Shown: in pieces, positions 52,989 to 57,567 of the stretch | Position numbering within the stretch: the stretch's first letter is position 1 | Layout: every line of letters begins with the position of its first letter | NCBI GenBank assembly: GCA_027451865.1 | Contig: DAIDHW010000001.1 | Span: 269,798 to 333,797, forward strand | Source: Leptolyngbyaceae cyanobacterium clean351 | GTDB taxonomy: Bacteria; Cyanobacteriota; Cyanobacteriia; DAIDHW01 | Length of the DNA stretch: 64,000 nt | Direction: 5' to 3' | Made by a program: the position numbers and the translations under genes | The notes under the pieces: model-generated | Told to the model about the DNA's origin: nothing | Seen by the model: the letters and a program-made list of their open reading frames with translations, nothing else | Database searches by the model: none

Positions 52989-53890
52989 TTATTCCGGCCT
53001 ACAATGGCGCCCAAACCCTGGGAAAGCTCCTGGCAGCCCTCAGTTGTCAGACCTATCCCCGGGAAAGCTTGGAGGTAATTGTAGTCGACAACAACTCCCA
53101 AGATGGCTCAGACCAGATCGCCCGCAGCTTTACCGGGGTGAAGGTAGTCTACGAACCGGTCCAGGGCCGCAGTGCCGCCCGTAACCGAGGGATTGCCACT
53201 GCTCAGGGCTCTGTGTTGGCCTTTACCGATTGTGACTGCATTCCCCACCCGGACTGGATTAGGGCCGGAGTCCAGCTTCTGCTGACCTCGGGGGCCCAGC
53301 GAGTGGGGGGACAGATAATTCTCGACCCCATTACCCCCGACAGTCCGAGCACTAGTCTGCTCGACGCCCTCTATAATTTCCATCAGGCAGAGGTGATCCG
53401 GCGCTACGGGGCAGTAATCACGGCCAACTTCATCACCTATAGGTCCCTCTTTGGGCTGGTAGGTCTTTTCAACCCTCAAGCCACCGGCCTAGAGGATATG
53501 GAGTTTGGCCTGCGGGCCGAGCTTGCCCATACTAAAGCAGTCTACGCTCCAGACTCCATCATCTTCCATCCCCCCCGGGATTGGTCTACCCTCCTGGCTA
53601 AGGGACGGGCTTCCGGGCGAGGCACCTACCTGCTATGCAAGGTCTATCCTACCTGGTCAGGACTGTGGGGCTGGAAACATCCCTTACGGATTATCAAGTT
53701 GCTTCTGTGGCCTCGGCCACTCCATTGGCAGCGCCTTCCCTTCTCCCCTCGTCGTCTCAGGTGGTCCCAAGTGTTCTGGATCCACCTCCTGGGCTGGCGG
53801 CTCATCTATTGGCCGAGTGCTCTCACCTACGCCCAATTGTGGCTGCAAGACCTGGTAAACCGGGGGCTGACCACAACCAAAGCCAATTAA
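52946..53890 (+). CDS. GT2-family glycosyltransferase
   Basis: 314 residues from ATG 52946 (MPDPTSPALPFVSVIIPAYNG). VIIPAYNGAQTLGKLLAALS, VVDNNSQDGSDQIA and FTDCDCIPHPDWI (DxD-like) mark the GT-A fold; LEDMEFGLRAELAHTKAVYAPDSIIFHPP is the conserved ED(Y/M) block. The open frame runs further upstream, but that part is antisense-like shadow of the previous gene. Last of the three glycosyltransferase genes. Confidence 0.86.
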   Translation: MPDPTSPALPFVSVIIPAYNGAQTLGKLLAALSCQTYPRESLEVIVVDNNSQDGSDQIARSFTGVKVVYEPVQGRSAARNRGIATAQGSVLAFTDCDCIPHPDWIRAGVQLLLTSGAQRVGGQIILDPITPDSPSTSLLDALYNFHQAEVIRRYGAVITANFITYRSLFGLVGLFNPQATGLEDMEFGLRAELAHTKAVYAPDSIIFHPPRDWSTLLAKGRASGRGTYLLCKVYPTWSGLWGWKHPLRIIKLLLWPRPLHWQRLPFSPRRLRWSQVFWIHLLGWRLIYWPSALTYAQLWLQDLVNRGLTTTKAN

Positions 53891-53941
53891 CTCCCTAACC
53901 ACTTAGGCCCAAGAGTAAGGAGGTCAAGAATGGGCAGTCAG

Positions 53942-53970
53942 TTGACAATCCTATCTAGGTTTTGTTATTT
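53942..53970 (+). promoter_or_regulatory. Promoter upstream of glutamine riboswitch
   Basis: Consensus -35 TTGACA (53942-53947), 17-nt spacer, -10-like TTATTT (53965-53970). It would start RNA close to 53977, just before the riboswitch. The -10 is weak, as expected of a regulated promoter. Confidence 0.5.
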
Positions 53971-53983
53971 TAGATACAGAATA

Positions 53984-54066
53984 ATCGTTCATCTCTCCTG
54001 TTGAAACCCGACCACTCGGGTCGCTGGAGAGACGGAAGTAGGGATTGTCCCCAAGGAACGCGCCTA
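53984..54066 (+). promoter_or_regulatory. Glutamine riboswitch (glnA RNA / Downstream-peptide family)
   Basis: The strand reads ATCGTTCATCTCTCC ... GGAGAGACGGAAGTAGGG ... CCCCAAGGAACGCGCC, the conserved blocks of the glnA RNA motif. CGTTC (53986-53990) pairs with GAACG (54056-54060) as P1; TCTCTCC (53992-53998) pairs with GGAGAGA (54026-54032), capped by a CCCGA/TCGGG hairpin (54007-54020); GGGA/TCCC forms the third stem. This aptamer binds L-glutamine in cyanobacteria. It lies 27 nt before a 71-codon gene, the arrangement typical of the Downstream-peptide class. Confidence 0.85.
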
Positions 54067-54092
54067 ACATCTCCACCCTGAGGCACAATTCC

Positions 54093-54308
54093 ATGACGTT
54101 TTCTAATTTGGCCGTTGTAGCACCGACCTATCATCAAGGGGTCAATCCCACCCCCTCCCCCGTCTCCTCCGGGAGCTACCTGGGGGGGACGCTGGTATTT
54201 GTGGCCTTGGCCGTGATGGTGATAACTGGGCTAGCAAGTGCCGGGGTCCTGCAGCCCCGGGAGACAGTCAAGTCCCGCCTGGGTCAGGCTTCTGGTCCAG
54301 CCCACTAA
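54093..54308 (+). CDS. Small single-helix membrane protein under glutamine-riboswitch control
   Basis: 71 residues from ATG 54093. A Pro/Ser-rich N-terminus (PTPSPVSSGSY) is followed by one membrane helix, LGGTLVFVALAVMVITGLASAGVL (about residues 32-55), then a basic soluble tail (QPRETVKSRLGQ). I do not recognise it. It is unlike the soluble glutamine-synthetase inactivating factors (GifA/GifB) that riboswitches control in other cyanobacteria, because it has a membrane helix. An intrinsic terminator follows 32 nt after its stop, so it is a stand-alone transcript. Neighbours are PII paralogues. Confidence 0.72.
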   Translation: MTFSNLAVVAPTYHQGVNPTPSPVSSGSYLGGTLVFVALAVMVITGLASAGVLQPRETVKSRLGQASGPAH

Positions 54309-54339
54309 CACCATCACGCTATAATCTCTCTATCCCGAA

Positions 54340-54368
54340 AGCCGCGTCAGACTGACGCGGCTTTTTTG
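54340..54368 (+). terminator. Intrinsic terminator of the riboswitch transcript
   Basis: AAGCCGCGTCA, short GAC loop, TGACGCGGCTT, then TTTTTG. Strong GC stem of about 11 bp with a T-run, shortly after the small membrane-protein gene. It also lies just after the 3' end of the convergent PII gene. Confidence 0.9.
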
Positions 54369-54388
54369 TTTAAGGGTGGGCTAAGGAC

Positions 54389-54781
54389 CTAGGGATTAGT
54401 CATCCCCTCTAATTCCGGTTCTGGCAATAGCACTTCCACTCCAGTCTCTCCCGTCCGAATCCGCACAGCCTTGGTGACGGGCAACACAAACACCTTACCG
54501 TCACCGATTTTGCCCGTGTGAGCCGTCTTGACAATTGTATCGACCACCAGTTCGGTCATTTCAGAGGCCACTACCAATTCCAGTTTGACCTTGGGAATGA
54601 AATCGACGGTAAAGGGTTGCCGCTGGGCATTGTACAGGCCCAGGAAGGCCAAGGGACGCCCCTTTTGCCGCCCGAACCCCTTAACTCCAGTGACCGTCAT
54701 CCCCTGCACCCCCACCTTGACCAACGCTTCCTTAAGTTCCTCTAGCTTGGCAGGTTGAACTACCGCAATAATTAAATCCAT
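54389..54781 (-). CDS. PII-family signal protein with variant T-loop (paralogue 1)
   Basis: 130 residues. PII motifs are GMTVTGVKGFGRQKG, FIPKVKLELVV, TGKIGDGKVFVLPV and VRIRTGET, which hold the ATP/ADP and 2-oxoglutarate ligands. The T-loop differs from standard GlnB: between GRQKG and VDF there are 17 residues (RPLAFLGLYNAQRQPFT) instead of 11, and the Ser49 and Tyr51 equivalents are absent. It likely senses the same ligands but has other partners and is not phosphorylated at Ser49. A C-terminal tail (LLPEPELEGMTNP) is acidic. It has its own promoter at 54923-54951. Confidence 0.88.
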   Translation of the reverse strand: MDLIIAVVQPAKLEELKEALVKVGVQGMTVTGVKGFGRQKGRPLAFLGLYNAQRQPFTVDFIPKVKLELVVASEMTELVVDTIVKTAHTGKIGDGKVFVLPVTKAVRIRTGETGVEVLLPEPELEGMTNP

Positions 54782-54918
54782 AGTCGTCTAGGCGCCTTTT
54801 TTAGATCAGGGTCCAAATCCCCATAGATGTGCCTAGCTATGAGCCGAGCCACCTGTGACCTTGGCAGCCCATAACTAACCCAAATGCACACTCGAAGACT
54901 AGATTCTGTATTTTACGA

Positions 54919-54951
54919 GACAGATATAACAGTTTTATATTGGTCTGTCAA
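54919..54951 (-). promoter_or_regulatory. Promoter with overlapping palindrome before PII paralogue 1
   Basis: On the minus strand, TTGACA (54951-54946), 17 nt, TATATC (54928-54923). The same bases form a nested inverted repeat: GACAG (54919-54923), ATATAA (54924-54929), CAGTT, TTATAT (54935-54940), TGGT, CTGTC (54945-54949). A protein bound there would cover both promoter boxes and repress. Confidence 0.55.
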
Positions 54952-54976
54952 GGATTACCCGGTCCACGTGGCCATG

Positions 54977-55004
54977 AAAAAAGCCACGCCCTAAAGACGT
55001 GGCT
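54977..55004 (-). terminator. Intrinsic terminator after PII paralogue 2
   Basis: On the minus strand, AGCCACG (55004-54998), 9-nt loop, CGTGGCT (54988-54982), then a T-run (54981-54977). It ends the permease-small protein-PII transcript. Confidence 0.85.
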
Positions 55005-55043
55005 GGACTCAGAGGCCGGAGGTCTAGCCCCCGTCAAGTAACC

Positions 55044-55430
55044 CTAGCCCACGGGAGCTTCGGCCTCCTCGGGGGTGAGGGCAGCAACATCGGTTTCGTT
55101 GGTGCGGATCCGGACTGCCTTGGAGACTGGGATCACAAACACCTTGCCATCGCCGATCTTGCCGGTGTGGGCGGTTTTGACGATGGTGTCTACCACGGCA
55201 TCGGTGAGCTCAGAGGGCACCACCATTTCCAATTTCACCTTGGGGATAAAGTCAACCACAAAGGGCTGACGTTCCATGTTGTAGAGGCCGAGAAAAGCCA
55301 AGGGGTGACCTTTCTGCCGCCCGAAGCCCTTGACGCCACTGACCGTCATGCCTTGGATGCCAGCTTTAATCAGCGCTTCCTTCACTTCATCCAGCTTAGA
55401 AGGCTGAATTACCGCCATGATTAAGTCCAT
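55044..55430 (-). CDS. PII-family signal protein with variant T-loop (paralogue 2)
   Basis: 128 residues, closely similar to the PII paralogue 263 nt away. GMTVSGVKGFGRQKG, FIPKVKLEMVVP, TGKIGDGKVFVIPV and VRIRTNET are present. The T-loop is again 17 residues long between GRQKG and VDF (HPLAFLGLYNMERQPFV), without Ser49/Tyr51. It lies 34 nt downstream of the small membrane gene and 290 nt downstream of the permease stop on the same strand, and is followed by an intrinsic terminator. I infer that it controls the permease or the small protein, as GlnK does with AmtB. Confidence 0.88.
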   Translation of the reverse strand: MDLIMAVIQPSKLDEVKEALIKAGIQGMTVSGVKGFGRQKGHPLAFLGLYNMERQPFVVDFIPKVKLEMVVPSELTDAVVDTIVKTAHTGKIGDGKVFVIPVSKAVRIRTNETDVAALTPEEAEAPVG

Positions 55431-55463
55431 AAGTTACCTTTTCCTGTGCGTAAAATGCTGGAG

Positions 55464-55622
55464 CTATAGACCCAGCGCTGTCTCAACCACCAAACCAAAA
55501 ATCACCAATCCCAGGAGCACCTTGCCGGCGGTTTGAAAACCTACCTTCAGGATTCGCCTTTGCTGTTTACGGGGGAGAGTCGGCCACTCCTGGGGGTCAA
55601 TGAACCATTTGTTTGTTGCCAT
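55464..55622 (-). CDS. Small single-helix membrane protein between permease and PII
   Basis: 52 residues from ATG 55622: a soluble start MATNKWFIDPQEWPTL, a basic stretch PRKQQRRILKVG, and a C-terminal helix VLLGLVIFGLVVETALGL. A GGAG-rich tract on the minus strand precedes it weakly. I do not recognise the family. Its place inside the presumed permease-PII operon suggests a transporter accessory or PII docking role, but that is inference only. Confidence 0.6.
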   Translation of the reverse strand: MATNKWFIDPQEWPTLPRKQQRRILKVGFQTAGKVLLGLVIFGLVVETALGL

Positions 55623-55654
55623 AGGGGAGAGGGTAGATAGGAGGAGAGATGAGA

Positions 55655-55690
55655 CTCTCCCGGGGTGCCCTGGGTACCGCTCCGGGAGAG
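55655..55690 (-). repeat. Stem-loop between permease and small membrane gene
   Basis: CTCTCCCGG (55655-55663) and CCGGGAGAG (55682-55690) form a perfect 9-bp stem with an 18-nt loop. It lies after the permease stop, with no T-run on the minus strand, so it is more likely an mRNA-stabilising or partially attenuating hairpin than a full terminator. Confidence 0.6.
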
Positions 55691-55719
55691 CTTCTGGGGC
55701 GGGGAAGCCAAAATCAGAC

Positions 55720-57393
55720 CTAGTAGTCTCGCTTCGATTCCCGCAGGGGATGGTCAATGTCGTGGGGGACTAAGATCGGCCGGCCAGTCATCATACTGGT
55801 GCCAAAGACGTAGAGGAACCCAAGACCAAAGAATACCACTGACACCCCGATGGCGATTTGGGCGTTGGTGGCCGAAGAACCCCCGGCGGTGAAGCCAAAG
55901 TAGAACACCCCAAACATCATGGCGAAGTTCATAATGGCCCCAATAATGGGGATGACCACGGTCTGCCAGACGTTAGTTTCCTCCCCAAGCAGATGGTCTA
56001 GGGAAGCTACCAGGGTAACTAGACAGGTCAGACCGTAAAAAATAAAGGTGCCAATGTTTGACATCAAGGTGACTTGGGTCAGGTTGTTAACATTGAGCAC
56101 TCCGTATCCACCGATGGCGGCCGACAGGATAGTCAGGAAGATGACTCCAATGTAGGGCGTGCCAAAGGAGCGGTGCAGCCGGCCAAAGGCCGCCGGCAGT
56201 TCGTTATCCGCAGCCATGGCGTAGGTGATCCGCACCCCCGTGGATAGGGAGGAAAGGGTAGTGCCTACCAAGGCCATCAGCACCGTGATCGCGAGCACCA
56301 CCACCAGTACAAAACCGTGCCCACCGAGGAGCTGGTCCCCTAGAATGCGCGCCATGTCCCCGATAGGGGCACCGGAAAGGGCCGCCGCGTCAAAGCCGGT
56401 AACGATGCTGCCCCCAGCGTACTTAGCGGGGTCAAGGCCCAGGGCCTTCACGGCAGCCGCAAAGTCGGTAATCTTGGGGTCTAGGCCGGAGACGAAGGAG
56501 GAGGCATCTTGGGCCTTATCGACTACCCCCGCGTAGGCGTTGCTGATAAAGAAGTTAGCCGCAAAGTACTCGAGGAAGTAGCAAATGCAGGCTTGAATAA
56601 ACAGGGAGAGAATAACCGCCTTCGGGATATCCCGCTTGGGGTTAATGGCTTCTCCCGCTAGGGCGGTGGCAGACTCAAAACCCACCACCAGCAAGATGGC
56701 GATTGTGCACTGGAACAGCAGGCCGTTGAAGTCGTGGGGTAACAGCACACTCACGGCGTTGGGGAATTCGTACTTGAACTCTGGATGTCCAAGGCGAAAG
56801 GCAATGAACATTATGCTCAAGATGACCAGAGAGACGATCTGGACAATGTTGATAATAATGTTTACCAGAGTCGACCCAGTCACCCCCATGAGGGCAATGA
56901 AGCCCACCAAAACCGCAAACACGGCACACAGGGCGATCTGGGAAAAGGGGTCAGAGGCGAAGTTAGGGTTGAACAGCTGACCAATGTAGACAATCAGCGT
57001 CCCCATGAAGGCTACCATAACCCCAGGGTAGACCCAGTAGTACAGGTGGGAGGACCAGCCAGTAAGAAACTTGACGACCCGGGCGAAGCGGAAGTGCTTG
57101 TGCTCTTCCTTGCTGAGAATGGCGACCTCGGCATAAAAGTAGGAACTGCCTGCCCCAGCGTTGGGGTAGGCCTTGGACATGGTGGCAAAGCAACTGGCGG
57201 TCAGCAGGGCAATCATCGTAGCAATGGCAATAGAGGACCACATGTTCAGGGCTGAGGAACGGGGGGCCTGCACCTGATAGGTGGTCCACAAGAAGGCCCC
57301 AGGAGCGATCAGGGCCATCGCATTGATGGTAACCCCGATTAAGCCTAGGGTAGGCTTAAGGCCTTCGGAGGCGGGAGATTCTGCACTGGACAT
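55720..57393 (-). CDS. APC-superfamily amino-acid/amine permease
   Basis: 557 residues from ATG 57393; a TTG at 57411 would add six. About 12 helices. The first, GLIGVTINAMALIAPGAFLWTTYQ, has the unwound-helix substrate motif of APC transporters; LLVVGFESATALAGEAINPKRDIPKAV is the conserved helix-6 block. A long extracytoplasmic loop (about residues 290-370) is unusual. Substrate is probably an amino acid or polyamine. It heads a minus-strand group with a small membrane protein and a PII paralogue. Confidence 0.85.
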   Translation of the reverse strand: MSSAESPASEGLKPTLGLIGVTINAMALIAPGAFLWTTYQVQAPRSSALNMWSSIAIATMIALLTASCFATMSKAYPNAGAGSSYFYAEVAILSKEEHKHFRFARVVKFLTGWSSHLYYWVYPGVMVAFMGTLIVYIGQLFNPNFASDPFSQIALCAVFAVLVGFIALMGVTGSTLVNIIINIVQIVSLVILSIMFIAFRLGHPEFKYEFPNAVSVLLPHDFNGLLFQCTIAILLVVGFESATALAGEAINPKRDIPKAVILSLFIQACICYFLEYFAANFFISNAYAGVVDKAQDASSFVSGLDPKITDFAAAVKALGLDPAKYAGGSIVTGFDAAALSGAPIGDMARILGDQLLGGHGFVLVVVLAITVLMALVGTTLSSLSTGVRITYAMAADNELPAAFGRLHRSFGTPYIGVIFLTILSAAIGGYGVLNVNNLTQVTLMSNIGTFIFYGLTCLVTLVASLDHLLGEETNVWQTVVIPIIGAIMNFAMMFGVFYFGFTAGGSSATNAQIAIGVSVVFFGLGFLYVFGTSMMTGRPILVPHDIDHPLRESKRDY

Positions 57394-57567
57394 GGTTCTT
57401 GAAGGTTTCAAGGAGTGATTAAGCTTCCAAGATCCCGGATCCCTTACCTAGGATTCTGTAGCCCAGAATACGGATAGTCCCAATCTACGAGAATGAAATA
57501 ATACCGATACGCATTTGTCATTCCCCCCCTTGCCCCAGTCGCCCAACTGGAGTTATTCGGCCCGCGG
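57394..57567 (-). promoter_or_regulatory. ntcA site: Permease upstream region with GTA-N8-TAC (NtcA-type) site
   Basis: About 170 nt between purQ and the permease. GTA-N8-TAC is at 57458-57471 (GTA, GCCCAGAA, TAC), 65 nt before the permease ATG. This is the NtcA consensus, but I see no TAN3T -10 box at the normal distance downstream, so the site could be activating with a weak -10, repressing, or chance. A TATTAT at about 57491-57496 on the minus strand could be a -10 upstream of it. Confidence 0.4.

Follow-up and report, generated by a model that had tools for sequence, protein, structure and literature searches.

Glutamine riboswitches are known mainly for soluble outputs of the DUF4278 and inactivating factor (IF) types, and the best studied of them switches off glutamine synthetase (GS). 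What, then, does such a riboswitch control when the gene behind it encodes neither? The question is raised by one locus in a 64-kb window (the whole stretch of DNA analysed here) of a cyanobacterial genome, G000, which measures 2.48 Mb and is 98.8% complete. A type-1 glutamine aptamer is present in the window: RF01739 (glnA) was matched at 51.1 bits against a gathering score of 35 (E 2.8e-8 over the whole window, model positions 1-53 of 53). It is the sole match in the Rfam scan of the window, and one glutamine riboswitch copy was found in the host genome. The initial annotation had recognised a glutamine aptamer, which the Rfam search bears out; the part of its reading that pointed to the Downstream-peptide class does not hold, as RF01704 (type-2 glutamine) was not reported. 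The features of the locus are collected in Table 1.

Table 1 Elements of the riboswitch gene, in window coordinates
Feature	Position	Strand	Basis and remarks
-35 hexamer TTGACA	53942..53947	+	Consensus scan; TTGAC(A) at the same place in many related riboswitch promoters
-10 TATTTT	53966-53971	+	18-nt spacer from -35, TG-extended, 10/12 consensus matches
NtcA-like box GTTATTTTAGATAC	53964..53977	+	GTA-N8-TAC 5/6; overlaps -10 TATTTT
Type-1 (glnA, RF01739) glutamine riboswitch aptamer	53984..54064	+	Rfam scan, 51.1 bits
P1 stem	53986-53990/54056-54060	+	Part of RF01739 aptamer
P2		+	Long hairpin insert; part of RF01739 aptamer
Conserved core GGAAGTA	54034-54040	+	Part of RF01739 aptamer
P3 start, GGG	54041-54043	+	Part of RF01739 aptamer
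G-to-C at conserved aptamer position	54052	+	Consensus GAAGGAAC, here CAAGGAAC
Anti-Shine-Dalgarno GCCU	54062..54065	+	Shortened form of conserved CGCCUC; sequence comparison over 161 leaders
Shine-Dalgarno GAGGC (GAGG 54080-54083)	54080..54084	+	Position equivalent to relatives' GAGGCG
ACAAUUCC next to ATG	54085..54092	+	Predicted pairing with GGGAUUGU (54041-54048), energy model only
ORF P0001, ATG 54093, 71 aa	54093..54308	+	Coding-like codon usage; 27 uncharged residues at the N terminus, then one membrane helix and a short basic tail
Codons of predicted transmembrane helix (residues about 26-51)	54168..54245	+	Hydropathy 2.45
Intrinsic terminator	54337..54365	+	-21 kcal/mol, z -5.5

The type-1 conserved blocks (CGTTCATC...GACGGAAGTAGG...GAAGGAACGC) are all present, as first read, except for a single conserved G that is C at 54052. 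Of 178 aptamers, 174 have G at this place, directly before AAGGAAC; C occurs in that of the window and in three others. All four C-bearing aptamers stand before genes of neither the DUF4278 nor the IF type (4/36 versus 0/142, Fisher p 0.0015, calculated over lineages that are not independent). In the crystal construct the strand UGAAGC, corresponding to the 54052 region, forms one side of an E-loop (PMC5393176). An A-C pair may take the place of a sheared A-G pair in such a loop. The riboswitch itself is ordinary; the gene behind it is not.

The promoter upstream of the aptamer was correctly recognised at the outset, with a spacer given as 17 nt that in fact measures 18. Transcription is predicted from the position of the -10 element to start near 53978, and the predicted transcript is monocistronic, ending at about 54370. 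A perfect GTA-N8-TAC stands within 60 bases before CGTTC at 116 of 170 related aptamer loci, compared with 1.6% of shuffles. Matches of at least 5/6 in these loci cluster between -22 and -31 from CGTTC, and the window box lies at -22. Chance often yields a best match of 5/6 (24% of shuffles do so); it is the position of the candidate NtcA box, rather than its match, that argues for it. If transcription begins at the predicted nucleotide, the box would be centred at -7.5. For gifB, NtcA is reported to act as a repressor at a site whose centre is -7.5, and the glutamine riboswitch (glnA aptamer) to activate expression with glutamine (PMC6316151). By homology to gifB, we infer NtcA repression and a glutamine-ON direction for P0001 as well.

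How could the aptamer act on translation? In relatives, CGCCUC directly follows the aptamer and can pair with a GAGGCG Shine-Dalgarno (SD) sequence a few bases before the ATG. The exceptions co-vary: CACCUC/GAGGUG, ACCUC/GAGGU, CGCUUCAUU/AAUGGAGCG and ACUUA/UGAGU. As the helix is otherwise nearly invariant and co-variation is confined to these exceptions, exchanging partners among loci (mean score 16.1 versus 15.7) is uninformative. The SD and ATG of the window stand at places equivalent to those of related leaders, and the helix between anti-SD and SD is GCCU/AGGC, only 4 bp long. In the unconstrained fold GGGAUUGU, which includes the 5' strand of P3, pairs with ACAAUUCC, and this pairing is predicted to mask the start region in the ligand-free state. 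When P1 and P3 are imposed, opening the SD-ATG region costs about 4.3 kcal/mol in the model, down from about 7.0, for RNAs with short 3' ends, a difference that vanishes once the modelled RNA runs to 54160. Modelled leader folding is compatible with a translational ON switch, without amounting to proof.

The gene itself scores 0.199 bits per codon, against 0.257 +- 0.10 for true coding pieces of the window and -0.166 +- 0.18 for wrong-frame pieces, 1.8% of the latter scoring as well as P0001. Its product has one hydrophobic stretch, at residues about 28-53, where Kyte-Doolittle hydropathy peaks at 2.45, and single-sequence AlphaFold places a helix at 26-49 with pLDDT about 90, confidence being low elsewhere (mean 67). 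With no charge in the first 27 residues and +3/-1 after the helix, the protein is probably oriented N-out/C-in by the positive-inside rule. A coding ORF with a membrane helix is thus strongly supported by prediction, in agreement with the initial annotation, which had also rightly placed an intrinsic terminator after the gene. Its remark that the protein does not resemble GifA/GifB is sustained too: inspection of P0001 shows no arginine-rich IF motif, and it has no Pfam or NCBIfam match above cut-off, PF14105 (DUF4278, with its hallmark YRGxxY repeats) included.

No homologue of P0001 was found in Pfam, NCBIfam (above cut-off), PDB sequences, genome_contigs, 291 genomes of the class or viral contigs; these collections contain no other genome of the host's order, so the absence of a match does not mean that the frame is unconserved. 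Matches at E 0.004-0.009 among the 291 class genomes lie mostly inside much larger, unrelated frames (L033 was inspected), and a search of plasmids with the leader DNA gave no match. The reading frame therefore draws no support from conservation, which we count against the explanation proposed below.

The outputs of other glutamine aptamers put the gene in context. Behind 178 distinct cyanobacterial aptamers we find 142 DUF4278/IF proteins, 17 members of a family A3, 4 of a family A2 and 15 others including P0001, shares that are not unbiased because part of the set came from A3 and A2 protein searches. The riboswitch-led set (n=163), drawn mostly from higher-scoring matches, comprises 132 DUF4278, 10 IF7-like, 4 A3, 2 A2 and 15 other outputs. 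Glutamine riboswitches thus repeatedly, though in a minority of cases, precede genes for membrane microproteins. That such an output is unusual, as initially stated, is true of its frequency (A3 and A2 make up 21/178, to which P0001 and a few others are added) and not of its uniqueness, since two other, unrelated membrane-microprotein families are linked to the riboswitch in other cyanobacteria. Counting the orphan P0001, the membrane families found behind glutamine riboswitches number at least three, all unrelated.

A3 proteins have one helix and 38-53 aa, with GLEIIAxVT...LPDR as a signature (e.g. MSTALVAGLEIIAAVTLMTVVVCPVLVWILPDRSQPVG); their loci (L010, L144, L279-L284, L286, L288-L291, L295-L297, L309, L310) belong chiefly to one cyanobacterial family. 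A2 proteins have two helices and about 72 aa (SIxTxEE...APW), and in a few lineages are found behind glutamine riboswitches (L107, L150, L249, L250, L252, L253); the family was matched in 39 of 242 genomes, most members elsewhere having no aptamer. Those A3 and A2 sequences that were scanned against Pfam and NCBIfam gave no match above cut-off, and inspection of the ORFs flanking the two families revealed no shared neighbour genes. No description of membrane microprotein outputs was found in a review (PMC6316151) or in a full-text search that covered part of the primary literature. Soluble proteins of about 140 aa (WQNYRxLELIPN...) also stand behind the glutamine riboswitch, at L021, L022, L113 and L136, where the leaders carry a co-varied anti-SD/SD pair, GCUUCAU/AUGGAGC. 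At L145 (G012:C2:1066502-1067661) three successive DUF4278 genes each have their own glutamine aptamer, and at L124 the protein behind the aptamer is 99 aa long, rich in Gln and Asn, and begins like a signal peptide.

The host, whose nearest relatives among the genomes searched are at class level, lacks the usual outputs: at E<=1 it has no match to DUF4278 (PF14105) or to the IF7/IF17 domain (profile A1), found in 28/30 and 23/30 genomes of the same searches, respectively. It has single genes for an ammonium transporter, GS and a canonical GlnB (L349), along with two variant PII genes, and the evidence singles out none of these as the target of P0001. According to the review, the C-terminal GS residues tied to IF binding show no conservation (PMC6316151), for which reason they were set aside as a test of lost IF binding.

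One variant PII gene is the immediate neighbour, and the distance of 80 nt first noted between its 3' end and the P0001 stop is correct (54308 to 54389). An operon link does not follow from it: the PII gene is on the opposite strand and convergent, and the terminator of the riboswitch strand lies between the two, which rules out a common operon. The neighbourhood contains two tandem PII paralogues (54389-55430, minus strand), separated by a terminator-like site (54982-55004). They are identical at 96/128 aligned positions, and their T-loop is altered, with GRPLAFLGLYNAQRQPFTVDF in place of GQTERYRGSEYTVEF. Together with an APC permease and a one-helix protein of about 52 aa (MATNKWFIDPQEWPTLPRKQQRR...) they occupy 54389-57411 on the minus strand; two Pseudanabaena genomes (L164, L165) have also preserved the grouping of the APC, variant PII and ~52 aa genes, without an aptamer beside them. 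This suggests a permease system under PII control, with no relation to the riboswitch. Upstream of it, at 57458-57471, stands a perfect NtcA-like GTA-N8-TAC, of which about one is expected by chance in such a length. On the minus strand, the stretch beyond the distal PII gene (53880-54389) revealed no intrinsic terminator; transcription from that gene might thus continue across the riboswitch gene in antisense.

We propose, at roughly even chances, that the locus is a one-gene nitrogen-excess module, NtcA-repressed and glutamine-ON, whose membrane microprotein damps a partner in nitrogen or amino-acid uptake. When nitrogen is short, NtcA would repress the promoter, as its gifB counterpart suggests; when nitrogen is plentiful, the leader would be transcribed. 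Binding of glutamine would then favour P1 and P3 and free the SD and start region, the ON direction again being taken from gifB, and the 71-residue single-pass protein would be translated and inserted N-out/C-in. There it would bind and damp a membrane partner, for example a nitrogen transporter, occupying the regulatory place of the soluble DUF4278/IF proteins missing from this genome; the membrane target is speculative. The proposal is supported by the aptamer score, the offset of the NtcA-like box, the placement of SD and ATG, the co-varying anti-SD/SD helix of some relatives and the codon usage, as well as by the lack of DUF4278/IF in a nearly complete genome and by the two other membrane families behind the riboswitch. 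It is weakened by the 5/6 box, the 4-bp anti-SD helix, an opening difference of only about 3 kcal/mol and the uncommon base at 54052, as well as by the absence of a neighbour gene common to A3 and A2.

Other readings start from the same facts. Having lost its DUF4278/IF gene, the riboswitch might now drive a fortuitous ORF, or else a small RNA, P0001 being non-functional; the orphan sequence, the absence of the usual outputs, the shortened anti-SD and the G-to-C change all lean that way. Yet promoter, aptamer, SD, ATG spacing and terminator are all intact, the codon score exceeds that of 98% of wrong-frame pieces, and one open frame of 71 codons holds a clean membrane helix, so that we regard decay as rather unlikely. 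P0001 could instead stand in for the GS inactivating factors, capturing or inhibiting GS at high glutamine, perhaps at the membrane. The riboswitch and NtcA-box promoter type shared with gifB (PMC6316151) would fit, as would a host with one GS gene and no IF7/IF17/DUF4278; however, the arginine-rich IF motif is missing, one would hardly expect a soluble enzyme to pair with a hydrophobic single-pass protein, and IF genes persist in some genomes with membrane outputs (G012, G002), which leaves this role improbable.

We hold it equally improbable that P0001 acts on the adjoining APC permease and variant PII system. Proximity speaks for this target, and so does the other small one-helix protein of that group; but the genes are convergent with a terminator between them, the Pseudanabaena group lacks an aptamer, and no such neighbour was seen beside related riboswitch membrane proteins. 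Finally, P0001 might be a diverged A3 member, given the alike size, topology, promoter, leader and start position. A three-row A3 profile found nothing in the host genome, and the A3 profile score of P0001 is -1.7 bits, no better than shuffles (of 494 shuffles with a score, 448 did as well or better); with a longer N-terminus and no LPDR motif in P0001 such kinship is very doubtful.

An intact riboswitch before a membrane microprotein, in a genome free of DUF4278/IF, together with A3 and A2, suggests that glutamine control has a second arm, directed at the membrane. Tentatively, an NtcA-box and riboswitch module may run independently recruited membrane families, at least three of them unrelated, as an unrecognised glutamine-sensing branch that damps nitrogen-related membrane proteins. 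The idea is directly testable in culturable relatives with A3 or A2.

Among known systems, the picocyanobacterial Downstream-peptide (type-2) genes share with P0001 a glutamine-controlled short ORF in the 17-100 aa class (PMC2864571, PMC6316151), whereas their aptamer class, RF01704, was not found here and their ORFs are of DUF4278 type. A2 is likewise a membrane microprotein under a glutamine riboswitch, but has two helices, an unrelated sequence and mostly aptamer-free members. A3 matches P0001 in riboswitch, single membrane helix and small size, with no detectable sequence homology; the distance from aptamer core to start codon is 59 nt in the P0001 leader and mostly 63-73 nt in A3. Synechocystis gifB (IF17) resembles our locus in the glnA aptamer of its 5' UTR, an NtcA box (a candidate one at our locus) overlapping the core promoter, and a short stand-alone gene whose leader apparently acts on translation (PMC6316151). 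It differs in its product: that of gifB is a soluble DUF4278/IF17 inactivating factor, and P0001 a one-helix membrane protein.
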